Below are positions 1 through 18,793 of a DNA stretch of 23,721 nucleotides, one piece after another. The notes under the pieces were generated by a model. It had not been told where the DNA came from and searched no databases. It saw only the letters and a program-made list of their open reading frames with translations. The DNA lies in IMG/VR virus record IMGVR_UViG_3300025087_000297, positions 1 through 23,721 of that record. One strand, given 5' to 3'. Both the position numbers and the translations under genes were made by a program. The first letter of the stretch is position 1, and each line of letters starts with the position of its first letter. The DNA comes from a virus.

Positions 1-89
1 CTTATATTAAATAAATTTAATTTTATTGATTTCCACTTTTCGGATTTATAAAAATCAACACGTTCCTGTTCTGTAAAATATTTACTCAT
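1..89 (-). CDS. Probable HNH endonuclease, N-terminus only (runs off the window)
   Basis: Reading leftward, an open frame starts with ATG at base 89 and continues without a stop to base 1, giving 29 residues. They begin MSKYFTEQERVDFYKSEKW. A FYKS..W segment near the N-terminus is common in small phage HNH endonucleases, but the catalytic part lies outside the window, so the family is inferred. The start overlaps the last bases of the upstream leftward gene (stop at 82-84), which suggests translational coupling. No structured RNA leader like those before the four + strand endonucleases is present here. Confidence 0.5.
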   Translation of the reverse strand, partial: MSKYFTEQERVDFYKSEKWKSIKLNLFNI

Positions 90-498
90 CTTCTTTATTC
101 TCTAAACTTTTATTTCTAGCATCGATAAACATTTCCTTTATTTTTTTCATTCCAAGTTTATCAGGATTTCTCCGATTATTATAAATGAAATCAGAAAGTT
201 GACTGTATATGTATTCATAATTATTAATTTTAATACGCCTTTTATTAGTTTTGCCTTGATTTAATATTTTTATATATCCCCAATCATTCAATATTTTTAT
301 ATTCCTAGTTACAGTTCTTTCTTCTTGGCAGGCCATTAGTCCTAGAAAAGCATTATTGGCCCAACAACTTTCTTTATTCTTATAAAGATAAAATATGCCA
401 AACAGAGACTTGGCACTTTCCGGGATGTTCGGGTTGAAAAGTAATTCTGTCGGGCAACATAAAATTTTTGGCCTTTTGCTAATTTTTAATTCTTCCAC
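82..498 (-). CDS. Winged-helix/HTH DNA-binding protein, possible replication or transcription regulator
   Basis: A 138-residue leftward gene. Residues about 18-80 read like a winged-helix domain of the type used by phage and plasmid replication proteins: an LLFNP..PESAKSLFGIFYLY segment, then an N-x-A-FLGLMACQEERTVTRNI recognition-type helix, then a GYIKI wing. The C-terminal third is basic and then acidic, ending in KNKEDE. It is the first gene behind the leftward promoter at 545-573, and the divergent promoter at 976-1005 shares a 13-base segment with that promoter. It could therefore regulate both directions, but that is inference. It could equally be a small replisome organiser. Family membership is moderately sure; the role is unknown. 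Confidence 0.6.
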   Translation of the reverse strand: MEELKISKRPKILCCPTELLFNPNIPESAKSLFGIFYLYKNKESCWANNAFLGLMACQEERTVTRNIKILNDWGYIKILNQGKTNKRRIKINNYEYIYSQLSDFIYNNRRNPDKLGMKKIKEMFIDARNKSLENKEDE

Positions 499-544
499 AT
501 TCTCTCCTTTATCTGTTTATTGTGATTAACTGCTGTAGACTCAT

Positions 545-573
545 ATAGTAAGAACTATAGTTAAATTTGTCAA
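545..573 (-). promoter_or_regulatory. Sigma70-like promoter, leftward
   Basis: On the minus strand a perfect -35 TTGACA (568-573) is followed after exactly 17 bases by TACTAT as -10 (545-550). The spacer contains the palindrome AACTATAGTT. It points at the leftward winged-helix gene, whose start is about 45 bases downstream. Confidence 0.7.
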
Positions 574-639
574 GTGGCAATGTAAACTTTTACAAAAATT
601 ATCTGGAAACTATAGAAAACAACAGTATTTCGACTATAG
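553..639. repeat. Palindrome AACTATAGTT and two ACTATAG half-sites
   Basis: AACTATAGTT at 553-562 is a perfect 10-base palindrome between the -10 and -35 of the leftward promoter. The half-sequence ACTATAG recurs at 609-615 and 633-639, 24 bases apart. The location inside a promoter spacer suggests operator sites for a repressor. The binding protein is not known; the adjacent winged-helix protein is a candidate. Confidence 0.4.
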
Positions 640-706
640 ATAATGGTTACTACCGTATTCAATAAACTTTTAATGTAGTAAGTCTTTTATACTTTATTCT
701 ACGAGC

Positions 707-733
707 ATGCTTTTTATTTACATAAAAAAGCAT
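707..733. other. AT-rich hairpin in the divergent region
   Basis: ATGCTTTTTAT (707-717) pairs with ATAAAAAAGCAT (722-733) across a four-base loop, with one bulged A. The stem has T-runs on both strands and could act as a weak bidirectional terminator or a cruciform. No function is shown by the sequence alone. Confidence 0.4.
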
Positions 734-827
734 ATACGCAATAGCACGAAATTCAAAATCGTAACACGCATAATTTAACACGTAACACAACCAAACACAA
801 GTACAATATTACACCATAACCATAGCG

Positions 828-867
828 TTGGTTGCTAGCGCAACCAAGTGACGATGCTACGCATCGT
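828..867. other. Two tandem perfect hairpins
   Basis: TTGGTTGC (828-835) pairs with GCAACCAA (840-847) over a TAGC loop. Three bases later ACGATGC (851-857) pairs with GCATCGT (861-867) over a TAC loop. Both stems are GC-richer than the surrounding DNA. They could be part of an untranslated RNA, a protein-binding site or an origin structure. They lie 110-150 bases upstream of the rightward promoter, so they are not in that transcript. Confidence 0.5.
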
Positions 868-975
868 GTGCTACTATTTTCAATGATTTTGTTTCAACTA
901 TTTTATATTCCTTGTTGTACTAAATAAAATTGTTAAAGTTATTCCGGTTCCGCGCCGATAAGATATGTTAATCAC

Positions 976-1005
976 TTGACAAATTGATAAACATGATTAT
1001 ATTAT
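976..1005 (+). promoter_or_regulatory. Sigma70-like promoter, rightward
   Basis: TTGACA (976-981) is followed after 18 bases by TATTAT (1000-1005); TATATT at 998-1003 gives an alternative with a 16-base spacer. The -35 sits within CACTTGACAAATT (973-985), which is identical, on the other strand, to the -35 region of the leftward promoter. It would drive the rightward gene series starting at 1044. Confidence 0.7.
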
Positions 1006-1043
1006 GCTGTAACGCAGTTAAAACTAAATAAACGGAGTAACAC

Positions 1044-1349
1044 ATGGTTGAAAACATTTTCTATTGGACTGGTGTAGTGATTTGGTGGTCGATATGTTTT
1101 TCTGCTATTGGCGTAGTTATAGCAACTACAATAGTTGCCCCAATTCTATCATATCTACGTATAAAGAAATATTTTTGGCAATGGAAATGGGGTTCCGAAT
1201 TAGCCCATACTGGATTAACACAAGAGGATGTGAGATATGCCCTTGCTTATGCTAAAACTCCTAATGGAGTGTCAATACAAGAAATTCCTGCTTGGGTCGA
1301 ACAAGTAAAAACTAGGACCGTCTCAGCTAGAAAACTCAGTAAGCAGTAA
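1044..1349 (+). CDS. Small membrane protein of unknown function
   Basis: 101 residues. Residues about 5-36 are a continuous hydrophobic stretch rich in W, I, V and A that would cross the membrane once. The remaining 65 residues are soluble and basic (ending ARKLSKQ) and would face the cytoplasm if the positive-inside rule holds (KK at about 41-42). A GGAG ribosome-binding site lies about 9 bases before the ATG. It is the first gene behind the rightward promoter. I do not recognise a family. Confidence 0.7.
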   Translation: MVENIFYWTGVVIWWSICFSAIGVVIATTIVAPILSYLRIKKYFWQWKWGSELAHTGLTQEDVRYALAYAKTPNGVSIQEIPAWVEQVKTRTVSARKLSKQ

Positions 1350-1372
1350 AATTAACTAAATACTGGAGCATT

Positions 1373-2281
1373 ATGAAAACATTTGACTCATCGCAAGATA
1401 AAATTGAATATAGTAAAGAATTGATTCGCTGTTGGTACGAAGCATGGGACGGAAAAGTATGTGTTTCCTTTTCTGGAGGGAAAGACAGCACTGTATTAAT
1501 GCATTTGGCCCGTTCTGTTCATCCAGATATTATTGGCTTGTTCTCGAACACTGGCCTAGAATACCCTGAAGTAGTTGCCCACGTAAAATCATTTGATAAT
1601 ATTATCATGGTTCGCCCTAAGAAAAATTTTAAATGGGTTTTAGAAAACAAAGGCTACCCTGTAATAAGTAAAAAAGTAGCAAGAGGTATTTCCGATTTAC
1701 AAAACTCACATGAAGGGAATCAAGACACCTGTAATTTAAGAATAACGGGATATAATAAAAAAGGAGTTTATTGCCCATCATTCAAGTTACCAAAGAAGTG
1801 GTTAAAATTGGCCGATGCCCCTTTTAAGATTTCTGATAGTTGTTGTAATTATATTAAAAAAGAACCGATGAAAAGAATCCACAAAGAATTAGGGCTTCAC
1901 CCAATAACAGGACAAATGATTTCTGAGGGGGGGCAAAGAGAATTTGCACTTAAAAATCAACAATGTAATGCTTACGAATTAAAAAGCCCAATATCTAACC
2001 CTATGTCGTACTGGGATGAACAAGACGTTCTTGAGTATATTATTAAATATGATATTAAAATTCCATCTGTTTATGGAGATATAGTAAAAGATGAAAATGG
2101 GAATTTAATTACCACCGGTGAAAAGAGAACAGGTTGTATGTTTTGCATGTTTGGGGTTCATCTTGAAAAAGGCGAAAATAGGTTTGAGAGGATGAAAAGA
2201 ACACACCCTCAACAATACGACTTTATTATTAATAAATTAAATGCAAAAGAGGTTCTGGATTACTTGAATATTAAATATTAA
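1373..2281 (+). CDS. PP-loop protein of the PAPS-reductase family with an iron-sulfur cysteine pattern
   Basis: 302 residues. The PP-loop SGGKDST at residues 34-40 binds the pyrophosphate of ATP or an adenylylated nucleotide. FSNTGLEYPE further on matches the (D/N)TGLE-(F/Y)PE segment of PAPS reductases. A CC pair at residues 157-158 and C-x2-C at 255-258 reproduce the CC...CxxC arrangement that holds a 4Fe-4S cluster in bacterial APS reductases. The C-terminal redox-cysteine motif of true reductases (ECG-x-H) is absent; the protein ends in LNIKY. It may therefore act in nucleic-acid thiolation or another adenylation reaction rather than sulfate assimilation; DndC of phosphorothioation systems has the same fold. 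No dnd partners are visible here. Family call strong, role uncertain. Confidence 0.85.
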   Translation: MKTFDSSQDKIEYSKELIRCWYEAWDGKVCVSFSGGKDSTVLMHLARSVHPDIIGLFSNTGLEYPEVVAHVKSFDNIIMVRPKKNFKWVLENKGYPVISKKVARGISDLQNSHEGNQDTCNLRITGYNKKGVYCPSFKLPKKWLKLADAPFKISDSCCNYIKKEPMKRIHKELGLHPITGQMISEGGQREFALKNQQCNAYELKSPISNPMSYWDEQDVLEYIIKYDIKIPSVYGDIVKDENGNLITTGEKRTGCMFCMFGVHLEKGENRFERMKRTHPQQYDFIINKLNAKEVLDYLNIKY

Positions 2282-3670: not shown

Positions 3671-4526
3671 ATGGAAGAGATTAAAACGAAGAAGTGCAGA
3701 GTTTGTGGTGAAGAAAAGGAATTAGATGCTTTTGTCAATCATAAAGGCTGTAAATTTGGAAAGGACACTTTATGTAAAGAATGTAGACAAATTTATTTAA
3801 AAAGTTCTCCAAATGTTCATAAGTCTGATAGCGGTAAAAAATATTACGAAAATAATAAAGAAAAGCATAAAATAGGCGGTAAGAAGTGGTACGAGAAAAA
3901 TAGAGATAAGATATTAAGTGATGAAAAAATTAGAAGAGAAGAGAAGAGAAGAGAATAAAAGTTTATTCCAAGAAAGAGGTAAAAAATATTACGAAAATAA
4001 CAAGGAATATGTGCTATAGAGATCTAAAAAATATAGGAATAGCTCAGCTCTTTATGAAACATATAAAAATAAATTAACAATTGATGAGGAGCCAATTTGC
4101 GATGAAAACGGATTTATTATGTGTAGATGTTATCATTGCAAAGAGTATTTTATCCCAAATAACGGACAGGTATCAAATAGACTTAATTCGTTAAATAATA
4201 ATAACGATGGGAAAGAAATTCATTTATATTGTTGTGATGAGCATAAATTATCGTGTGGCGTATACAGAGCAAGAACAACGCCAAGAGAATTGAGGAATAT
4301 AACAAAAAGAGCACGTTGCAACCAGCCCATTAATCGCAAAGCATTACTGGATAACCAAGAAGACGAATTTGGCTATACCTACTGTGAAAAATGCGGCAGG
4401 CCTCTTCCGCGAGAAGAATTAATCATCCATCACAACATAATGGTTGGCAAAGACCATACAATGGCTGATGATATGAGCCATCAAATAATAGTATGTGATG
4501 AATGCCATGAACATAAAGGTTGTTAA
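3671..4526 (+). pseudogene. Decayed HNH homing endonuclease (frameshift plus stop)
   Basis: The N-terminal frame (3671-3958) starts MEEIKTKKCRVCGEEKELDAF and is clearly paralogous to the intact gene at 8923. It breaks in an AAGAG repeat at about 3930-3950, a likely slippage site. The continuing frame carries KKYYENNKEY, meets an in-frame TAG at 4017-4019, then resumes with the conserved C-terminal part through 4526: CRCYHCKEYF, CEKCGRPLP, the HH of the HNH site (IIHHN), and DDMSHQIIVCDECHEHKGC. Two independent lesions make a functional full-length product unlikely. The C-terminal half could still be made from ATG 4119, keeping all HNH residues but not the N-terminal zinc finger. It sits between terS and terL and its end overlaps the terL start. 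Confidence 0.8.
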
Positions 4527-6654: not shown

Positions 6655-7434
6655 ATGATAAATCTATATCAAGGTGATTGTTTAGAAGTAATGAAAGGCA
6701 TTCCTGATGGGAGTGTAGATGCTATTATCACCGATCCTCCTTACGGGACTACTGCTTGTAAATGGGATTCAGTTATCCCGTTTGAGGCTATGTGGGAGCA
6801 GCTAAAGAGGGTTATTAAACCTAATGGTGCTATTGTATTGTTCGGCAGTGAACCGTTTAGTAGTGCATTACGGATGAGTAATATAAAAATGTACAAATAT
6901 GATTGGGTGTGGAAGAAAAGCAAAGGGAGTAATTTTCCACATGCTCCTAATATGCCATTAAAAATAACCGAGAATATTTGTGTATTTTCTAAGGGAATTA
7001 TTGGACACTTATTGCAAGCCGGGGAAAAGAGAATGAATTATAATCCTCAAGGAATAAGGCCAGGAACTACGATTGTTAAACAAAACAAGAACACAAGCGA
7101 TCTTAAATATCATAGAGAATCACAAACTAACCATACTTCTGGATATACATGTAAAAATGAAAATTATCCCACTTGTGTAATAGAAATAAAAAGCGAAGGT
7201 AAGACTATTCACCCCACCCAAAAACCAGTAGCATTAATGGAATACTTAATTAAAACTTATACAAATGAATCAGAAACCGTATTAGATTTTACAATGGGCA
7301 GTGGCACAACAGGCGTAGCATGTAAAAACTTAAGTAGAAAATTTATAGGAATAGAAAAAGATTTAACCTATTTTAATATAGCTAAAGATAGAATCAACAA
7401 TACTCAAATTATACCAAATACAATCGAAGGATAA
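6655..7434 (+). CDS. DNA methyltransferase, beta class (N6-adenine or N4-cytosine)
   Basis: 259 residues. The catalytic motif DPPY is at residues 27-30 and the S-adenosylmethionine motif DFTMGSGTTG at 211-220, with the variable target-recognition region between them. This order defines the beta class (N6_N4_Mtase family). The HPTQKP segment just before the SAM motif is also typical. The enzyme would methylate an exocyclic amino group in a short DNA target, probably protecting phage DNA from host restriction or marking it for packaging. No cognate restriction enzyme is adjacent, so it is an orphan in this window. It starts right after the preceding stop. Confidence 0.9.
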   Translation: MINLYQGDCLEVMKGIPDGSVDAIITDPPYGTTACKWDSVIPFEAMWEQLKRVIKPNGAIVLFGSEPFSSALRMSNIKMYKYDWVWKKSKGSNFPHAPNMPLKITENICVFSKGIIGHLLQAGEKRMNYNPQGIRPGTTIVKQNKNTSDLKYHRESQTNHTSGYTCKNENYPTCVIEIKSEGKTIHPTQKPVALMEYLIKTYTNESETVLDFTMGSGTTGVACKNLSRKFIGIEKDLTYFNIAKDRINNTQIIPNTIEG

Positions 7435-7437
7435 CAT

Positions 7438-8823
7438 ATGGCTAATCCATTTTCATATGAAGTACAGTTAAAGGCTGCCGGGGGAAAGAGGAAGGGGGCT
7501 TTGCTTCCTTACCTGTATCCCTATCAATATGGGAGAGAGTTGCATAGTGATGAAGATTTTTATGCAATGATAAACAGCTACAGGTCGTGGATTTATGTAG
7601 CATCGAATAAGAATGCTTCGACTGTAGCGAATACACCATTGAGACTTTATGTTGCGAAGAACAACAAAAGCCAAAGGGTAAAACGAGTACAAACGAAAGC
7701 AGTTGACATAAAACAGGAAAGATTCATAAGAGAAAATCCATTCCTGAACAATATTCCTGCTATTAGAAAGGCATCATCCTTCGAAGAGGTGCTTGACCAT
7801 CCGTTTTTAGATCTGAAAACAAATGTAAACCCATTTGTAAATTCCTTTGATTTGTTCGAAATGACTCAGCTGTATCAGGAGTTGACAGGAAACGCTTTCT
7901 GGCATATATTAGAGGATAAATTTGGGGTCCCAAGGGAGATTTGGTTGATCCCCCCTCAAAATTGTAAAATAATGCCAGATGCTAAGAAGTTTATATCTGG
8001 GTACAAGTATATAAAAAGTACAGAAGAGATTGATTTATCAGAACGCTCAATTATCCATTTTAAAATGCCCAACCCAAAGAATCAATATTATGGAAGTAGC
8101 CCCGTCACTAGTATCGCGGAAGAATATGGATTAGCTAAATCCATTAATGAATATGAGGCCGCGATTTTCAGGAATGGGGGAAATAATCTAAATGGTGTTT
8201 TTGAAACTGATTCCGAGTTAGGAGACCATGAGTTTGAACGTCTGAAAATTGAGATCAAACAAATGTTAGGCGGTGCGTCAAAAGGTGGTTCTATGCCCCT
8301 CCTTGATCATGGGTTGAAGTACAAACCTTTCACGAACAATTCTCCAAAGGATATGTCATACCTAGGAGGGCGCGACAGGATCAAAGAGGCTGTGCTTAAT
8401 GCGTTTGGGCAAGCATTGGGTATGTACAGCTCAGAGGCCAATAGGAACAATGCTGATGCTGCCATTGCGACATTTATGCAGTTTACTATTCAGCCAAGGC
8501 TTAGAAGGATTGAAGAAAAACTAAATGAGAAGATGATTTGGCGTTATGACGAAAAGCTTTTCGTCGCTTATGATAATTGTATACCATCTGATAAATTGTT
8601 CGAGTTGAATCAAAGCGTAAAACACATCCAAACCTCAATCACTTCAGTAGACGAAGAAAGAGATAAACTTGGATTACCTGAACTTGGTGGCGTGTTTAAA
8701 CAGCCTTTTATCCCAGTTAACTTTACAACCCCATCTGGCCTTTTAGCTAGTATTGCCGAAGGCACAGGCGAAGGGAATGTTGTATCGTCACCTGAGAAGA
8801 TGAAGGAAATTTTAAATAGATAA
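7438..8823 (+). CDS. Portal protein, HK97 gp3-like
   Basis: 461 residues, close to the usual length of the Phage_portal family. Recognisable parts include SYRSWIYVASNKNASTVA near the N-terminus, ELTGNAFWHILED, and the late ANRNNADAAIATFMQFTIQP followed by RRIEEKLNEKM. Twelve copies form the ring at the capsid vertex through which terminase drives DNA. Its place after terL and before the protease and capsid genes agrees. The C-terminal end looks complete, so the following endonuclease unit has inserted behind the gene, not in it. Confidence 0.88.
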   Translation: MANPFSYEVQLKAAGGKRKGALLPYLYPYQYGRELHSDEDFYAMINSYRSWIYVASNKNASTVANTPLRLYVAKNNKSQRVKRVQTKAVDIKQERFIRENPFLNNIPAIRKASSFEEVLDHPFLDLKTNVNPFVNSFDLFEMTQLYQELTGNAFWHILEDKFGVPREIWLIPPQNCKIMPDAKKFISGYKYIKSTEEIDLSERSIIHFKMPNPKNQYYGSSPVTSIAEEYGLAKSINEYEAAIFRNGGNNLNGVFETDSELGDHEFERLKIEIKQMLGGASKGGSMPLLDHGLKYKPFTNNSPKDMSYLGGRDRIKEAVLNAFGQALGMYSSEANRNNADAAIATFMQFTIQPRLRRIEEKLNEKMIWRYDEKLFVAYDNCIPSDKLFELNQSVKHIQTSITSVDEERDKLGLPELGGVFKQPFIPVNFTTPSGLLASIAEGTGEGNVVSSPEKMKEILNR

Positions 8824-8922: not shown

Positions 8923-9870
8923 ATGGAAGAAACGAAAGTTTGTACAAAATGTGGAGAAGAAAAGGAGTTAAGAGAGTTTTACAGAAGAGAAGGTTCTAGT
9001 GATGGGAGGAGGACTGACTGCAAAGAATGTTGTTCTAAAAATAAAAGAAAATATTATGAAAATAATAGAGAAATATTTTTGAAGAAAAGCAAAGAAGTAT
9101 ATTTAGAAAATTCAGAATATATAAAAGAAAGACAAAGGAATTACACTAAAAAGAATAAGGAATATATTTCTAAGAAAAGTAAGGAAAAGAGAGAATTAAA
9201 TAGAGACAGAATAAGGGAAAAGGAAAGACTTTCGTATTATAGAAACAGAGAGAAGAAATTATTGGCGGCGCGTAAGTTATACGAGGTCAATAAAGATAAA
9301 AAATCGGAATATAATAAGAAATATAGAATTGAAAATAAAGACGAATTGGTTTTAAAAAAGAAAAAATATGCTAATGGCAAGGCGTTATTTAAAACGTTTG
9401 CTGACAGGTTAACAGTTGAGGAGTCTCCAATTGAAAATGAGCATGGCTTCATGTTATGTAAATGTTTTAAATGTGGTAAATATTTTTATCCTACAGTAAG
9501 GGAAGTAAGTAACAGGATAACATCACTTAATACTAGTGATGGGAAAGAATGTCACTTATATGATTCACAAAAATGTAAGCAGGAGTGTGATGTTTTTAAA
9601 GCAAAATTTCTGCCAAAATCGCAGAGAGATCTTATAATACAAGCTAGGTGTAATCAGGATTTGAATAGAGAAATGTTGCTCCAATTGCAATTAGATGAGT
9701 TTGGGTATAATTTTTGTGAAGTTTGCGGTGTAGAATTTGATCAGAAAGACTTATTTATTCATCATAATTTAATGGTTTCTTTATATTTAAATGAAGCGGA
9801 TAATATGAGCCACCAGATTTTAGTCTGTCGCTCACATCATACCCATAAAGATTGCTTTAATAAGTCATAA
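8923..9870 (+). CDS. HNH homing endonuclease with N-terminal zinc finger
   Basis: 315 residues. The N-terminus has CTKCGEEKELREFY and CKECC, a four-cysteine finger (residues about 7-36). Residues about 40-150 are a long, lysine-rich helical linker built of loosely repeated Y-x-x-N-(K/R) units. The C-terminal nuclease part has CKCFKCGKYF, then CEVCGVEF, IHHN with H280/H281, and a final MSHQILVCRSHH, matching an HNH metal site. It would cut intron-less target DNA in related phages and spread by copying. It lies between portal and phosphoesterase genes and is much more AT-rich than the capsid gene. It is the intact paralogue of the broken gene at 3671. Confidence 0.85.
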   Translation: MEETKVCTKCGEEKELREFYRREGSSDGRRTDCKECCSKNKRKYYENNREIFLKKSKEVYLENSEYIKERQRNYTKKNKEYISKKSKEKRELNRDRIREKERLSYYRNREKKLLAARKLYEVNKDKKSEYNKKYRIENKDELVLKKKKYANGKALFKTFADRLTVEESPIENEHGFMLCKCFKCGKYFYPTVREVSNRITSLNTSDGKECHLYDSQKCKQECDVFKAKFLPKSQRDLIIQARCNQDLNREMLLQLQLDEFGYNFCEVCGVEFDQKDLFIHHNLMVSLYLNEADNMSHQILVCRSHHTHKDCFNKS

Positions 9871-9886: not shown

Positions 9887-11113
9887 TTGACTACAGAATC
9901 ACAAGAGATCCAAGAATTGATTGTTGAAACATTCCTGAAACTGGATAAAAACGCCAGAGCAACAGCCAGGGAGCTTAACCTTCCCAGAACAACAGTACGC
10001 AACCACTTGAGGCGGGCTAAAAACAACACAAGATACAAAGAAATTTTTAAAGTACAATCAGAAAATGGTAACGAAACACTTATCCTTAAATCACAAATCC
10101 AGGACTTAAGAAAAGAATTAGTGGAAGCAAATAAAAATAGCGTTTCCGCTGAATATATAAAGAGATTTATTCTCAATTTAAAAGATTCCAATCATATCAT
10201 CCCAGAATGGCTAAGTAAAGAGTCAAATTTTAATGATGGGACGATTGGAGTACCTACTTTATGTATTAGCGACCTGCATTTTGGAGAGGTGGTTGATCCT
10301 GACCAGATATTCGGAGTAAATAAATACAATATTGAAATTGCTAAACATAGATTGCAAGTAGTGGTTGATAAAGCTATTGATTTATCATTTAATCATATAG
10401 CTAATGCTAAGTATCCAGGGATCATTGTCCCTCTACTTGGTGACCTCAGCACTGGACTCATTCATGACGAATTGAAGATAACAGGTGAAAAAGAAGTATT
10501 ACAAGTGAGCCTTGAACTTTTAGATGCAATGATTGAAGCAATTAAAAAATTAGCTGATTCATTTGGGAAGGTATTTGTTCCCTGTGTAGCCGGGAATCAT
10601 GGGCGATTGACTCTTAAACCGAGAGCGAAGGGGTACGCATACGATTCAATGGACTGGCTTCAATATCAACTCCTTGCTAAGTTCTTTGAAAATGACAAAA
10701 GAATTAAATTTTTAATTGCAGATGGTGAAGATGCTCAATATAAGGTGTACGATTACACTTATAGAATCACACATGGTTCGCAATTTTCCGGTGGAAACGG
10801 AATCCTCGGCGCGCTTGGACCGATTTTGCGCGGTGACATGAAGAAACGCTCTTCTGCTAGGTCAATGAATGCAGATTACGATGTATTATTGATTGGGCAC
10901 TTCCATCAATCTATGACATTTGCTCAACGGTGTATATGCAACGGTTCATTGGTTGGATTTAGTGAATATGCAGCGAAGGGGAATTATCCATTTGAACCAC
11001 CTACCCAAAATTTCTTTATTACACACCCTGTTCATGGTATTACATTTAATCTGCCTATTAGAATTGAAGATAAAGAATTAACTAATAAAGAGTGGGTCAG
11101 TTGGGAGGAATAA
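9887..11113 (+). CDS. Calcineurin-like metallophosphoesterase with N-terminal HTH
   Basis: 408 residues from TTG 9887, supported by AAGGGAG at 9873-9879. Residues about 20-45 (NARATARELNLPRTTVRNHL) are a helix-turn-helix. The rest carries the five metal-binding motifs of the family: SDLHFG (D129, H131), GDL (D186), GNH (N237, H238), THG (H296) and GHFH (H338, H340). Such enzymes hydrolyse phosphodiesters or phosphomonoesters in a two-metal site; the natural substrate cannot be read from sequence. A DNA-binding head joined to a nuclease-like phosphoesterase suggests action on nucleic acid, perhaps during packaging or host DNA breakdown. Family call strong. Confidence 0.88.
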   Translation: MTTESQEIQELIVETFLKLDKNARATARELNLPRTTVRNHLRRAKNNTRYKEIFKVQSENGNETLILKSQIQDLRKELVEANKNSVSAEYIKRFILNLKDSNHIIPEWLSKESNFNDGTIGVPTLCISDLHFGEVVDPDQIFGVNKYNIEIAKHRLQVVVDKAIDLSFNHIANAKYPGIIVPLLGDLSTGLIHDELKITGEKEVLQVSLELLDAMIEAIKKLADSFGKVFVPCVAGNHGRLTLKPRAKGYAYDSMDWLQYQLLAKFFENDKRIKFLIADGEDAQYKVYDYTYRITHGSQFSGGNGILGALGPILRGDMKKRSSARSMNADYDVLLIGHFHQSMTFAQRCICNGSLVGFSEYAAKGNYPFEPPTQNFFITHPVHGITFNLPIRIEDKELTNKEWVSWEE

Positions 11114-11551: not shown

Positions 11552-14086
11552 ATGATTGAAAATAAAATGTTCGCCACTTGCTTTAAAAAGGAAGTGAATG
11601 ACGAAGAGAAATCAGTAGTTGCATGGGCAAATAAGTCAGACTCCATTGACAGGTCAGGCGACCTTATCGAAGACGAAGCTTGGGATTTAGAGAACTTTTT
11701 GAAAAATCCGGTTATCCCCGCGTTCCATCAATATGACAGGCCTCCTATCGGTAAAGCACTTTGGGCACGGGTAATTCCGGGACAAGGCTTAAAATTCAAG
11801 GTTAAGTTCGCTTCAACTTTGGAAGGACAAGAATTCTATGAGCTGTACCGGGATGGGGTGCTCAATGCGTTCTCTGTGGGCTTCCGTGCGTTTGACTATC
11901 TCGAAAGGGAAGATTTTAAAGAAGCAGATATTATTAAATATAATAGGAATGGAAAATTGCCTAATCGGGTTTACAAGAAAGTGGAATTGTTTGAGGTAAG
12001 CGCAGCAGTTGTCCCTGATCACATGAATGCGCTGGTGGAACGATCTGCTTCTGGCATGATTAAGACTAAGTGTGTAATGGATTTCGCAGAAGACGCTAAA
12101 TCCTCCCCAGAATATATCGAACTCCTCTCCACCCAGCCGGATTCTCTACCGGATTTCCCAATGGAAGATAAAGCAAAAGTAATCGGATTTATTAACCTCA
12201 GTGAAAAATCACTTGATGAACCAGAAGAAGTAATCGAAGAGGTACAAGAGGTTCAGGAAACCGTAGAAAACGAAGGTGCAGTAGAAGAAAAATCAGAAAC
12301 GATTGAAGAAGTTGTCGATGCTAAACCAGTAGTAGAGACTGAGACTGTCGAAGATGCTGAACCAATTGAAAAAATAGTAAATGTGGAAGTCCTTGAAGAC
12401 GCCGAAGAAAAAGGTTTAGACCTTGAAATTATTAATGAAATAGAGAAAATCGGAGAAGTAGCTGAACCAGAAACTATTGATGTCGTCGAAGAAAAAGCGA
12501 CAGACGAAGTTAAAAGCATTAAAAAAGAAATCAATGATATTATCTTAGAAGTTCAAAAAGAAGAGAGTATTGAATCAGTAGCGACTGTAGAAAAGGTTAC
12601 TCAAGAAGAAGTAGATAGAATAACAAATATTCTGAAATCTTGCAAGATTAAAGATATTTCTGATGAAGATAAGAAAATTATCTCAAAACAGTATGGCGAA
12701 GAAGAATTTGATATTACTTCAGTAAGAACTGAACCTGCTGGTTTTGAACTAAAGGTCTTCTGTAAATTCCTGAATTGCAAAATCAAGAATATGTTTGTTA
12801 CTGATTTCTTTATCCCTAGCGCAATGAAAGGTAATTATTTATCTGGCTTTAGAAATTCACTAACTAAACACGAATTATTAGATCAGAGGAATTTGTATGG
12901 AAATGGTGGGGAAATTCCTCTTCGCCATTCAGTTATCCAGTTGAATTCAAAAAGATCAGAAGAATTCTTAACTCAAGGGACACAGTTTTATAAAGCAGAT
13001 TCTGGTGAAAGATTTGTATTCCAGATTGAACCAGATTGGGGTGGGTATGGGATTAATATTTATACTACCGATAAAAATATTGAACTAAATAAATCATTTG
13101 CTATGGATGCCATTCAGTGGGTAAAAGAAAACAATCTACTGAAAGGTGAAAAATTCTCTATTATGGGAGAATTTCTTGATAAAAAAGAAATTGGTTGGGA
13201 TGATGTAATTTTCCCTGATGAAGAAGCGAAGAATAAAGTCAAAGGTAGCATTGATAGACTTACTAAGACTTCCCCCAGTAGAGGGATTATGCTTATCGGC
13301 CCCCCAGGGACAGGCAAGACGATGACTGGTAAGGTATTGATGAATCAGCCTGATACTACTTTTATTTGGGCATCTTCTAAAGATTTTAGATATGGGGCTG
13401 CTGGTGCATTAGCTCTTGGTTTTGAAATGGCAAGGGATCTTGCTCCTTCTGTATTTTTTCTTGAAGATATTGATACTTGGTTGAAAGATTATACGATTGA
13501 TCTTCTCAAAACTGAAATGGATGGGATTAGAGACAATAAAGGCGTTTTAACTGTCTTAACTTCAAATTTTCCTGAGCAAATGCCAGAAGCATTGATTGAT
13601 CGCCCAGGTAGATTTCACCATATTATAAATTTTTCTTTACCAAATAAAGAAAATAGAATTAAATTATTAAAGTTTTTTGTTGATTATGCCGATAAGGTAA
13701 TAATAGAGAAATTTGCGGAAGAGACTGCTGGATATTCTGGTTCTCATTTAAAAGAATTAGTGGAATTTGCAAAGATGATTGCTGAAGATCTAAACATTTC
13801 TATCGACGAGGCGCTTGTTAAATCTTTAGATCAAATGAAAGCACAACGGCAATTAATTATCGATGTAAGAAGTAATAAGAAGAAAGGATTAGAAATCCAA
13901 ATGCCTGAAACTAAAATGGTAGAATTTTTAACTTCAACTAAAAAAGAAACCGAATTAAATTTTACTCCTGAACAGGTACAGGATATTTTTACTAAGAATT
14001 TAAAAGAAGTATTCAGTAAAATTAATATCAGTGAAATAGTAGAAGACAGAATTAAAATGGCTAAAGGTATTATTGAGTTTGAATAA
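11552..14086 (+). CDS. Prohead protease fused to AAA+ ATPase
   Basis: One uninterrupted 844-residue frame behind an AAGGAGG site. Residues 1-170 are an HK97-type prohead protease (family U35): His59 in AFHQYD and Ser108 in NAFSVGF, about 50 residues apart as in this family, and VELFEVSAAVVPDHMN. Residues about 218-350 are an acidic, E/V-rich linker. Residues about 350-545 form an unassigned N-domain. Residues about 545-720 are an AAA+ ATPase with Walker A GPPGTGKT (583-590), Walker B VFFLEDID (634-641), sensor-1 N672 and an arginine finger in DRPGRF (683-688). The C-terminal 100 residues are charged and helical. Prohead proteases are normally about 150-250 residues alone. The fusion implies ATP-driven unfolding or scaffold removal coupled to capsid cleavage; that is inference. 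Confidence 0.88.
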   Translation: MIENKMFATCFKKEVNDEEKSVVAWANKSDSIDRSGDLIEDEAWDLENFLKNPVIPAFHQYDRPPIGKALWARVIPGQGLKFKVKFASTLEGQEFYELYRDGVLNAFSVGFRAFDYLEREDFKEADIIKYNRNGKLPNRVYKKVELFEVSAAVVPDHMNALVERSASGMIKTKCVMDFAEDAKSSPEYIELLSTQPDSLPDFPMEDKAKVIGFINLSEKSLDEPEEVIEEVQEVQETVENEGAVEEKSETIEEVVDAKPVVETETVEDAEPIEKIVNVEVLEDAEEKGLDLEIINEIEKIGEVAEPETIDVVEEKATDEVKSIKKEINDIILEVQKEESIESVATVEKVTQEEVDRITNILKSCKIKDISDEDKKIISKQYGEEEFDITSVRTEPAGFELKVFCKFLNCKIKNMFVTDFFIPSAMKGNYLSGFRNSLTKHELLDQRNLYGNGGEIPLRHSVIQLNSKRSEEFLTQGTQFYKADSGERFVFQIEPDWGGYGINIYTTDKNIELNKSFAMDAIQWVKENNLLKGEKFSIMGEFLDKKEIGWDDVIFPDEEAKNKVKGSIDRLTKTSPSRGIMLIGPPGTGKTMTGKVLMNQPDTTFIWASSKDFRYGAAGALALGFEMARDLAPSVFFLEDIDTWLKDYTIDLLKTEMDGIRDNKGVLTVLTSNFPEQMPEALIDRPGRFHHIINFSLPNKENRIKLLKFFVDYADKVIIEKFAEETAGYSGSHLKELVEFAKMIAEDLNISIDEALVKSLDQMKAQRQLIIDVRSNKKKGLEIQMPETKMVEFLTSTKKETELNFTPEQVQDIFTKNLKEVFSKINISEIVEDRIKMAKGIIEFE

Positions 14087-15604: not shown

Positions 15605-16549
15605 ATGGGTAAAAGAGCGAATAAAATTGAAGTAAAATGTGAAACGTGCGGCAAACCAAAGATTATTACTGAACGGGCATACAACGCCAATAAAACAAAA
15701 AGATTTTATTGCAATACTACTTGTAGGAATAATGATAAGTTTAAACAAGTAGAAGTAATTTGTGAAAATTGTGAAACAGTATTTATGATTCACAAGTCAA
15801 GATATGATAAGCGTAAAAATAAAAGATTCTGCTGTAGTCGTAAATGTTTATCATCATATAAAAATGTGACACTTACCTGTGATGGGTGCGGTAGTGATTT
15901 TAAAAGAAAAGAGTACGAACACAAAAAGACAAACGGAAGTTTTTGTTCTAGGAAGTGTTATTTAAATCATATCAGGAATAAAGTAGAAACAAATTGCATA
16001 AATTGTAATGAAATTATTTTTGTTAGGCCGGAAGATTTAGAGAATAAAGAAAATTGTTTTTGTTATAGGAAGTGTTTACACAATTGGCAACATTTAAATT
16101 GGCAAGGAGAGAATCATCCTAATTTTTCGCAAGTAGAAGTAAAATGTTCTGTATGCGAAAAGGGGAAAATGGTAACAAAAGCAGTGTCAGAAAGGCACTC
16201 TAAATTTTACTGTTCTGATGAATGCTTGTCAATTGGTAAAACTGGTGAAGGATCTTCAACTTGGTTAGGAGGAATATCTTTTGGTGAATATTCTCCTAGT
16301 TTTAATAAAAGACTTAAAAAGAAGATAAAGAAACGAGACAACTTTCGTTGCCAACTTTGTGGAAGAAAAGGGAACAAGAAAATATTTTTAGTTATTCATC
16401 ATAAAAATTATATAAAGACCGATTCGGATGATGATAATTTAATAACTTTATGCTCTAGTTGTCATGGTAAAACTAACCACAACAGAGAAATTTGGCAAAG
16501 ATGGTTTAATTCAAGTAGTAGTTTTTGGTTTGCTGCACGTTCACAATAA
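15605..16549 (+). CDS. HNH homing endonuclease with five tandem zinc-finger units
   Basis: 314 residues. Residues about 12-210 contain five successive units of C-x2-C, about 20 residues, then (F/Y)-x-C-x3-C, each spaced about 35-45 residues apart. These would be five zinc fingers for DNA recognition. The C-terminal nuclease is CQLCGRKG, VIHHKNY, and LITLCSSCHGKTNH, a standard HNH site. A WLGG segment links the parts. It is inserted between the capsid gene and the next virion gene and is far more AT-rich than both (13 of 60 G or C in 15961-16020). It would cleave a cognate site in phages lacking the insert. GGGAG at 15591-15595 supports the start at 15605; ATG at 15601 is out of frame and stops at once. 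Confidence 0.87.
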   Translation: MGKRANKIEVKCETCGKPKIITERAYNANKTKRFYCNTTCRNNDKFKQVEVICENCETVFMIHKSRYDKRKNKRFCCSRKCLSSYKNVTLTCDGCGSDFKRKEYEHKKTNGSFCSRKCYLNHIRNKVETNCINCNEIIFVRPEDLENKENCFCYRKCLHNWQHLNWQGENHPNFSQVEVKCSVCEKGKMVTKAVSERHSKFYCSDECLSIGKTGEGSSTWLGGISFGEYSPSFNKRLKKKIKKRDNFRCQLCGRKGNKKIFLVIHHKNYIKTDSDDDNLITLCSSCHGKTNHNREIWQRWFNSSSSFWFAARSQ

Positions 16550-18061: not shown

Positions 18062-18793
18062 ATGAGAGGTGGGCAGAATAGAATTAATGTAGTAATTGGA
18101 CAAGAATTTGGTAGATTAAAAATTGTCGAAGAAATTGATAAAAATAAATGGGGAAGACGGAGATTTCTTTGCGAATGTAATTGCGTTGATAAAACAAAAG
18201 TCGAGGTTCTATTGTATTCTTTAACTTCAGGACATACGAATTCTTGTGGTTGTTTTAATTTAGAAAAAATTAAAGAAAGAAATACAAAACACGGGTTCTC
18301 CCAAAGAAATAATATCGATAAGTTTTATAGTCTTTGGTTGAGTGTCAAGAGACGTTGTTATAATAAAAATCAAAAACAGTACAAAGATTATGGCGGTCGT
18401 GGTATTTATGTATGTGATGAATGGTTGAATGACCCACAAAAATTTATCGGTTGGTGTAAAGTTAATGCATATTCAGAAGGATTAGAAATTGATAGGGAAG
18501 ACAATGATGGACCTTACTCCCCAGAGAATTGCAGGTTTGTTACTTGTCAAGTAAATTCGTTAAATTCAAGGTTATTAAGAGATTCGAATTCTAGTGGATA
18601 TTGTGGCGTAAGTTATCATAAAGGCAGTGATAGTTTTCAAGCAAGGATAATGTATAACGGCAAGGTTGTATTTACTACCGCAGGTTTTAATTCTCCACGG
18701 AATGCAGCATTAGATAGAGATAAATTCATTATAAGGGAAGGATTGCTGCATAAGTTAAACTTCCCCGAACTAGCAATCAACGGGCCTCTATAA
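18062..18793 (+). CDS. AP2-domain homing endonuclease of the phage HNH-like type
   Basis: 243 residues. The N-terminal part has GQEFGRLKIVEE and a cysteine set (CECNC and CGCF) typical of a family of phage homing endonucleases. The central YSLWLSVKRRCYNKNQKQY and YGGRGIYVCDEW, with LEIDREDNDGPYSPENCRF, is the catalytic-type core of that family. Residues about 177-240 (SSGYCGVSYHK at the start, GKVVFTTAGF later) match an AP2 DNA-binding domain. It is unrelated in architecture to the other endonucleases here, yet carries the same RNA leader. Its stop overlaps the glycosyltransferase start by one base. Confidence 0.8.
   Translation: MRGGQNRINVVIGQEFGRLKIVEEIDKNKWGRRRFLCECNCVDKTKVEVLLYSLTSGHTNSCGCFNLEKIKERNTKHGFSQRNNIDKFYSLWLSVKRRCYNKNQKQYKDYGGRGIYVCDEWLNDPQKFIGWCKVNAYSEGLEIDREDNDGPYSPENCRFVTCQVNSLNSRLLRDSNSSGYCGVSYHKGSDSFQARIMYNGKVVFTTAGFNSPRNAALDRDKFIIREGLLHKLNFPELAINGPL

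Follow-up and report, generated by a model that had tools for sequence, protein, structure and literature searches.

The product of a phage PAPS-reductase-like gene without the catalytic ECGxH tail is very probably not a CysH

Background

In iron-sulfur APS reductases (CysH/APR) a CC pair and a CxxC pair supply the four cysteine ligands of a [4Fe-4S] cluster. The cysteine of the C-terminal tail is the nucleophile of APS/PAPS reductase, as restated in part of a review (PMC8175902). In passages of PMC9301287 cysH is counted among the viral auxiliary metabolic genes conserved worldwide, and it is taken as a gene of sulfate assimilation. Viral cysH is read in the same way in parts of PMC7785012 and PMC6145125. 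PAPS-reductase homologues are also described from phages with the suggestion that their functions may exceed sulfur metabolism (a section of PMC11437467). In the open-licence literature we found no statement that phage PAPS reductases lack the catalytic cysteine. The nearest published argument to tail loss concerns CasCysH of the type IV-B CRISPR systems, described in a portion of PMC8175902 as CysH-like, with a PP-motif and without the catalytic cysteine. CasCysH is linked to Csf proteins and is not phage cargo, and it is likened to the proteins studied here by that published description only.

Other proteins that combine a PP-loop with a cysteine-bearing PAPS_reduct fold are DndC, SspD and BrxP (DNA phosphorothioation, BREX type 4). 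DndC and BrxP are described in sections of PMC10853773 and PMC12839542.

Here we describe a PAPS-reductase-like gene from a stretch of viral DNA of 23,721 nucleotides, the whole of which is called the window (IMG/VR record IMGVR_UViG_3300025087_000297, positions 1 to 23,721). The encoded protein and its family are compared with true CysH/APR proteins and with the DNA-sulfur-modification enzymes. Possible functions are weighed in light of the cysteine pattern, the phylogeny and the gene neighbours.

Results and discussion

The window protein

The gene and the conserved sites of its product are located in the window as follows.

1373..2281, + strand: PAPS-reductase-like PP-loop protein of the phrog_424 family without an ECGxH tail; ORF of 302 amino acids with an ATG start
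1472..1492, + strand: PP-loop SGGKDST, residues 34-40
1841..1846, + strand: C157-C158, matching the CC cluster ligands in the alignment with APS reductase
1964..1966, + strand: C198, an additional conserved cysteine that APS reductase lacks at the aligned position
2135..2146, + strand: C255-xx-C258, matching the CxxC cluster ligands in the alignment with APS reductase

The protein passes the Pfam gathering cut-off of PF01507 (PAPS_reduct; 8.1e-16, 59 bits against 22.5). It matches phrog_424 over residues 8-290 (1.1e-46). This moron/AMG family is named 'phosphoadenosine phosphosulfate reductase', a function that the missing tail contradicts. The nine cysteines are residues 20, 30, 120, 134, 157, 158, 198, 255 and 258. 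The protein ends 44 residues past C258, near the ends of its relatives, with no ECGxH or similar tail. A preliminary description of the window had recognised the PP-loop SGGKDST and a CC(157-158)...CxxC(255-258) set as in iron-sulfur APS reductases, and both are borne out by the ORF translation and by profile-profile alignment.

Four CysH/APR models with curated NCBIfam cut-offs match the protein, which fails all four widely: NF002537 (40 bits, cut-off 154), TIGR00434 (25.1, cut-off 165.1), TIGR02055 (25.3, cut-off 235.3) and TIGR02057 (19.2, cut-off 254.2). A control APR and a control CysH each pass the NCBIfam models meant for them. No nucleic-acid-binding domain was reported for the window protein in the Pfam search, which counts against nucleic-acid sulfur transfer.

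A widespread tail-less family

The window sequence alone retrieved 168 stretches from IMG/VR, and an alignment of 58 members retrieved 545. All 58 match PF01507 at E 0.001, and S34, G36, D38 and S39 of the PP-loop are invariant among them. In the named-phage collection 25 records match the family, none of them reaching 60% identity; Vibrio phages, a C. difficile phage and Enterobacter phage Tyrion are among them. Bacterial and archaeal genomes, scanned once, yielded 212 relatives, of which 80 were kept, and the titles of their records include Clostridiales, Desulfobacteraceae, Gastranaerophilales and Marinomonas. The tail-less phage PAPS-reductase-like gene is widespread, and it is labelled as a sulfate-assimilation enzyme in databases.

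An alignment of 166 sequences was assembled from the window protein, 80 viral, 80 genomic and 5 named-phage members. The C-terminal end is present in 165 of these, and part of the protein is absent in two. An ECGxH-like tail occurs in none of the 166 (165 with the C-terminal end); its absence, reported earlier for the window protein, extends to the whole sampled family. The cysteines 157, 158, 255 and 258 are kept in 164/164 members with letters at those four sites, a figure that is biased for the sequence-only IMG/VR loci because two of the six search patterns contain CC or CxxC. C198 is a cysteine in 160/164 (W, F, L and F in the other four). The patterns used for the bacterial and archaeal loci contained neither CC nor C198, and there CC is kept in 80/80 and C198 in 79/80. 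The family-wide CC and CxxC have the arrangement of the APS-reductase [4Fe-4S] site, from which a cluster is predicted.

A further column, 285, lies 27 residues past C258 and is a cysteine in 154/166 members; the window protein has Ile. Eleven full-length members (the window protein included, some of them interrelated) lack C285 and keep the other five cysteines. It is therefore unlikely that C285 has to stand in for the lost tail, and its role as a replacement nucleophile is doubtful.

True CysH/APR proteins and their viral counterparts

Controls were taken from 60 genomes, 40 of which had a cysH match, and the best 30 proteins were used. The ECGxH tail is present in 30/30 of them, a set that leans towards the tail since the model choosing the controls covers it, and CC with CxxC is present in 26/30.

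An APR query matched 18 records of the phage collection. Among nine of these the tail is present in two and absent in seven. The two tail-bearing records are a 254-kb Acinetobacter contig with housekeeping genes and a 691-kb Salmonella contig, and they are bacterial DNA filed as phage.

No match was obtained in IMG/VR with one Marinomonas APR, and seven CysH-like loci were retrieved with an alignment built from 22 of the 30 controls. CGxH is present in six of these, and the seventh is truncated where its contig ends. The CysH-like gene begins at the very end of the contig in L241-L243. L238 and L239/L240 may be genuine viral APS reductases. The ECGxH tail was seen at L238 3962-4555 and L239 276-926, which group with bacterial CysH/APR in the tree. 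From the CGxH-bearing loci and the possible true APRs, real viral CysH seems to exist. It seems to be rare next to the tail-less family, although the comparison of seven CysH-like with 545 tail-less stretches is only rough because one peptide pattern stands against two.

Structure, alignment and phylogeny

The AlphaFold2 model of the window protein has a mean pLDDT of 94.1 and a pTM of 0.89. Its best structural matches are APS/PAPS reductases, the ATP sulfurylase CysD and FAD synthase. The matches include 7lhs_B (Z 18.5, rmsd 2.8 over 179), 2goy_A (Z 17.9, 2.9 over 182), 1zun_A (Z 17.8, 2.8 over 160) and 8rom (Z 17.2, 2.9 over 159). FAD synthase scores Z 17.2, LarE 14.6, and GMP synthetase and NAD synthetase about 14. 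The sulfur-inserting TtuA and NcsA are also among the Foldseek matches. In the structure comparison TtuA, NcsA and LarE share a PP-loop fold with an iron-sulfur cluster, but their structural similarity to the window protein is lower. Their cysteine pattern also differs from that of the tail-less family. The fold, as modelled, does not by itself pick a function.

A single-sequence search of the PDB returned weak matches only, and a profile search returned APS/PAPS reductases. Profile-profile alignment with an iron-sulfur APR (E 2.1e-16) places CC on CC and CxxC on CxxC. The likeness to this enzyme (TIGR02055; PDB 2goy, 7lhs) includes the PAPS_reduct fold, the Lys and Pro after CC and an NP(L/M)xxW motif. 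However, the tail-less family lacks ECGxH, has the extra C198 and a full PP-loop SGGKDS that is absent from the aligned APRs, and falls in another clade.

In a tree of 43 rows CysD, CysH, APR and two viral APRs lie on one side of a split supported at 96/96. The tail-less family, a clade supported at 99/98, shares the other side with the DndC, SspD-like and BrxP-like rows. In this topology, which has only a midpoint root, several DndC/SspD/BrxP-like rows are long-branched, and a pair of long branches join each other.

Model matches to these enzymes are weak. The DndC model reaches the window protein at E 0.0066 over residues 7-46 only, which fails as a whole-protein match; the control DndC L187 scores 2.6e-134. 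BrxP (1.4e-10) and SspD (7.8e-8) match in two stretches each, best at 18-73 and 30-92 respectively, with PADLOC models that carry no cut-off. DndC and BrxP are longer than the window protein. By eye, the reference DndC L187 has one cysteine where the tail-less family has CC. Unlike DndC, SspD and BrxP, the family has no recognised system partners among its listed neighbours.

These observations indicate that the product of the window gene is very probably not a CysH. The iron-sulfur-type site without the catalytic end, together with a tree position nearer to DNA-sulfur-modification enzymes, implies that its real role is probably other than sulfate assimilation. The APR-type CC...CxxC, the absent tail, the failed CysH/APR models and the side of the tree make a chemistry other than sulfite release likely. 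To this extent the preliminary description stands; nucleic-acid sulfur modification, which it gave as an example of such chemistry, is something that we infer.

Gene neighbours and cysteine desulfurases

The gene was located in 192 of 196 loci (114 after removal of near-duplicates), and 148 direct neighbours were scanned, comprising 147 of 163 and the window's own. The commonest Pfam family among the 148 is C5 methyltransferase with five, and other DNA-methylase families have two, two and two. Among direct neighbours that could be given a name, DNA methyltransferases rank with the most common, and replication and head families are about as frequent. By eye, TerL-like genes occur at 14/73 loci and Dam/D12 methylase-like genes at 13/73; these are among the top clusters, with related contigs counted. 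No neighbour recurs widely, and a universal operon partner was rejected.

Among the 25 of 177 PADLOC families listed for the direct neighbours there is no Dnd/Ssp model, only methyltransferase-type models. DndD and DndE partners are likewise absent among the families listed (25 each), which cover direct neighbours only on fragmentary contigs. The 25 of 88 Pfam families listed for direct neighbours include none of CysD/CysN/CysJ type.

A cysteine desulfurase lies near the gene in 3/192 family loci, from two lineages. In L267 it begins 9 bases past the stop codon of the homologue (6940-8067), as it does in the relative L278. In L157, a Ruminococcus MAG contig, it is found four genes on (+4; 9962-11092). 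The L267 and L157 desulfurases are 41% identical and keep the GSAC motif. Both have strong SspA/DndA/NifS matches below the NCBIfam equivalog cut-offs, and in PADLOC they score best with SspA/DndA. A second PP-loop relative lies two genes upstream in L157, and its homologue lies about 9 kb away on the L267/L278 contigs (L280 with L267, L281 with L278). A desulfurase was found on 1/50 whole contigs, a rate that comes without matched control contigs since the TerL query yielded only two related phages. The cysteine desulfurase was rejected as a general partner at this frequency; the desulfurase neighbours are supporting evidence and no rule.

Eleven contigs with a related desulfurase include two that hold PF01507 by Pfam, and L290, a third, has a weak tblastn match (28% identity, 5e-17). 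Eight virus records (L282-L289) have a related cysteine desulfurase without a PF01507 match. A match to the desulfurase at 1e-10 is present in 50/50,697 records of the named-phage collection, of which many are short records without annotation or contigs of a bacterial-looking Acinetobacter record.

Another arrangement is seen in L022-L025, L036 and L040. Here a PP-loop protein of 247-249 amino acids lies directly upstream of the gene, with a single cysteine replacing CC. The L025 protein matches SspD at 7.6e-24.

Possible functions of the tail-less enzyme

Our tentative preference is for an accessory phage PP-loop enzyme, not a PAPS/APS reductase, that would use ATP to transfer sulfur to a nucleic acid or nucleotide. 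Such transfer fits best with the combination of PP-loop, cluster-type cysteines, missing tail, position on the DndC/SspD/BrxP side and occasional desulfurase. The enzyme would bind a [4Fe-4S] cluster, and the PP-loop with ATP would adenylate, and so activate, an oxygen of the nucleic acid or nucleotide. The activated oxygen would then be swapped for sulfur delivered as a persulfide by a cysteine desulfurase, which may be host IscS in most cases and the product of a neighbouring gene in a few. C198 is a candidate for the sulfur-carrying residue, a guess weakened by the four exceptions (W, F, L and F). The product could be sulfur-modified phage nucleic acid or host tRNA, which might aid the phage past defence or in translation. 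With four cysteine ligands the cluster would lack the free iron that can take up sulfide in the three-ligand thiolases, and this counts against sulfur transfer. For the nucleic-acid sulfur modification proposed earlier, the desulfurases in two lineages speak in favour, and the lack of a widespread neighbour and of any Dnd/Ssp model among the 25 of 177 PADLOC families listed speaks against. The fuller picture of a phage-borne mobile sulfur-modification enzyme outside Dnd/Ssp is doubtful. Such an enzyme would thiolate phage DNA or host RNA, normally with sulfur from IscS, and a few genomes would bring the whole route, desulfurase and second PP-loop relative together (L267/L280, L278/L281 and L157).

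A strong rival explanation, though itself rather unlikely, is a PP-loop enzyme, ligase or hydrolase, that does no sulfur chemistry and in which the cluster is structural. The enzyme would adenylate a nucleobase or small molecule, giving a modified base, or degrade a signalling or cofactor nucleotide against host defence. In structure comparison the scores of the reductases are nearly reached by PP-loop enzymes of many functions (FAD synthase, Z 17.2), adenylation is argued for a different tail-less CysH-like clade in part of the review of type IV-B CasCysH (PMC8175902), and the gene resembles optional cargo, as described below. Against this, no readable member lacks any of the four cysteines (164/164) and desulfurases lie nearby in two lineages. 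Another rival is an APS/PAPS reductase whose nucleophile has moved to C198 or, in most members, to C285, a metabolic gene giving the host sulfite. The fold and cluster set are those of APS reductase, C285 lies 27 residues past C258 where the tail cysteine of the Marinomonas APR lies 25, 154/166 members have it, and viral cysH is so read in passages of PMC7785012 and PMC9301287. We nevertheless consider this improbable. The tail is found in 0/166 members, C285 is missing from 11 full-length members, the window protein among them, and C198 from four. The tree sets the family apart from CysH/APR, which two tail-bearing viral proteins do join, and CysD/CysN/CysJ-type families are absent from the 25 of 88 neighbour Pfam families listed. 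A hidden reductase is less likely than sulfur transfer or a non-sulfur PP-loop reaction. Most improbable is a stand-alone DndC/SspD-like phosphorothioation enzyme that acts on the phage DNA backbone with host partners. It would agree with the tree position beside DndC/SspD/BrxP-like rows, with the weak matches to BrxP and SspD, which are strongest towards the N-terminus, and with the nearby desulfurases that score best with SspA/DndA models in PADLOC. The DndC model gives an E of only 0.0066, however, inspection by eye shows just one cysteine at the CC position in the reference DndC L187, and the PADLOC families listed for direct neighbours hold no Dnd/Ssp model.

Some of what is published on 'viral cysH' may be based on tail-less proteins. 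If the common phage form lacks the catalytic residue, claims on the ecology of viral sulfate assimilation need re-checking. A search for ECGxH combined with tree placement is a simple test that tells CysH from the tail-less kind. Should the preferred reading of sulfur modification be true, many 'viral cysH auxiliary metabolic genes' would be genes of nucleic-acid modification and not of the sulfur cycle. The tail-less family offers a compact stand-alone enzyme for direct study of possible phage nucleic-acid sulfur modification.

The locus and its empty site

In the window the gene forms a cassette with a small ORF.

710..1030, + strand: leader/intergenic region before the cassette, common to cassette-less phages (86% over 725-1030)
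1024..2271, + strand: two-gene cassette (101-aa ORF and PAPS-reductase-like gene), the site of which is empty in two related phages
1044..1349, + strand: 101-aa ORF in the cassette, hydrophobic near its N-terminus (one membrane helix as judged by eye)

The 101-aa ORF has no Pfam, PHROGs or PADLOC match. The cassette ends are ambiguous (left 1021-1031, right 2270-2278) because TAAATA stands on both sides. A megablast of the whole window against named phages gave no match. Related phages were found through the terminase: L293 is 99.3% identical over 9998 bases of its available sequence, and L292 is 98.4% over 4644 bases and 99.4% over 2677 bases. The similarity of both cassette-less phages (98-99%) lies to the right of the gene, and window positions 1-724 are unmatched there. 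In these phages the leader (86%) joins directly to the next gene (89% over its first 129 bases), with TAAATA edges. The leader and right flank match and 1-724 does not, so the phages are mosaic. The cassette difference may have arisen by insertion, by deletion or by exchange.

In its place L293 (741-1556, - strand) and likewise L292 have, about 2 kb away on the opposite strand, a distantly related member of the family whose reading frame contains stops. In the part of the decayed L293 copy that was examined the CxxC is not recognisable. The PAPS-reductase-like gene looks like dispensable or optional cargo that is gained, lost and decaying.

The gene had been placed with early-type genes behind a divergent region. 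It does lie just behind a divergent intergenic region. The genes that follow it are two small ORFs, the terminase small subunit and HNH-like ORFs (by eye), and farther downstream are the large subunit of the terminase, a DNA methyltransferase and the portal. With the gene at the head of an operon that includes the terminase genes, the early assignment is doubtful, and it was rejected on operon order.

Several other ORFs of the window were inspected by eye. Positions 3671-3958 and 4119-4526, between the terminase genes, resemble the N- and C-terminal parts of the ORF at 8923-9870 and are possibly a broken copy of this 315-aa HNH-like ORF. More HNH-like ORFs were seen at 15605-16549 and 18062-18793.

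An ORF of 844 amino acids at 11552-14086 (+ strand) precedes the major capsid gene and has two parts, a head-maturation-protease/major-head-like N-terminal part (about 10-280) and an AAA+ ATPase-like C-terminal part (about 540-790).
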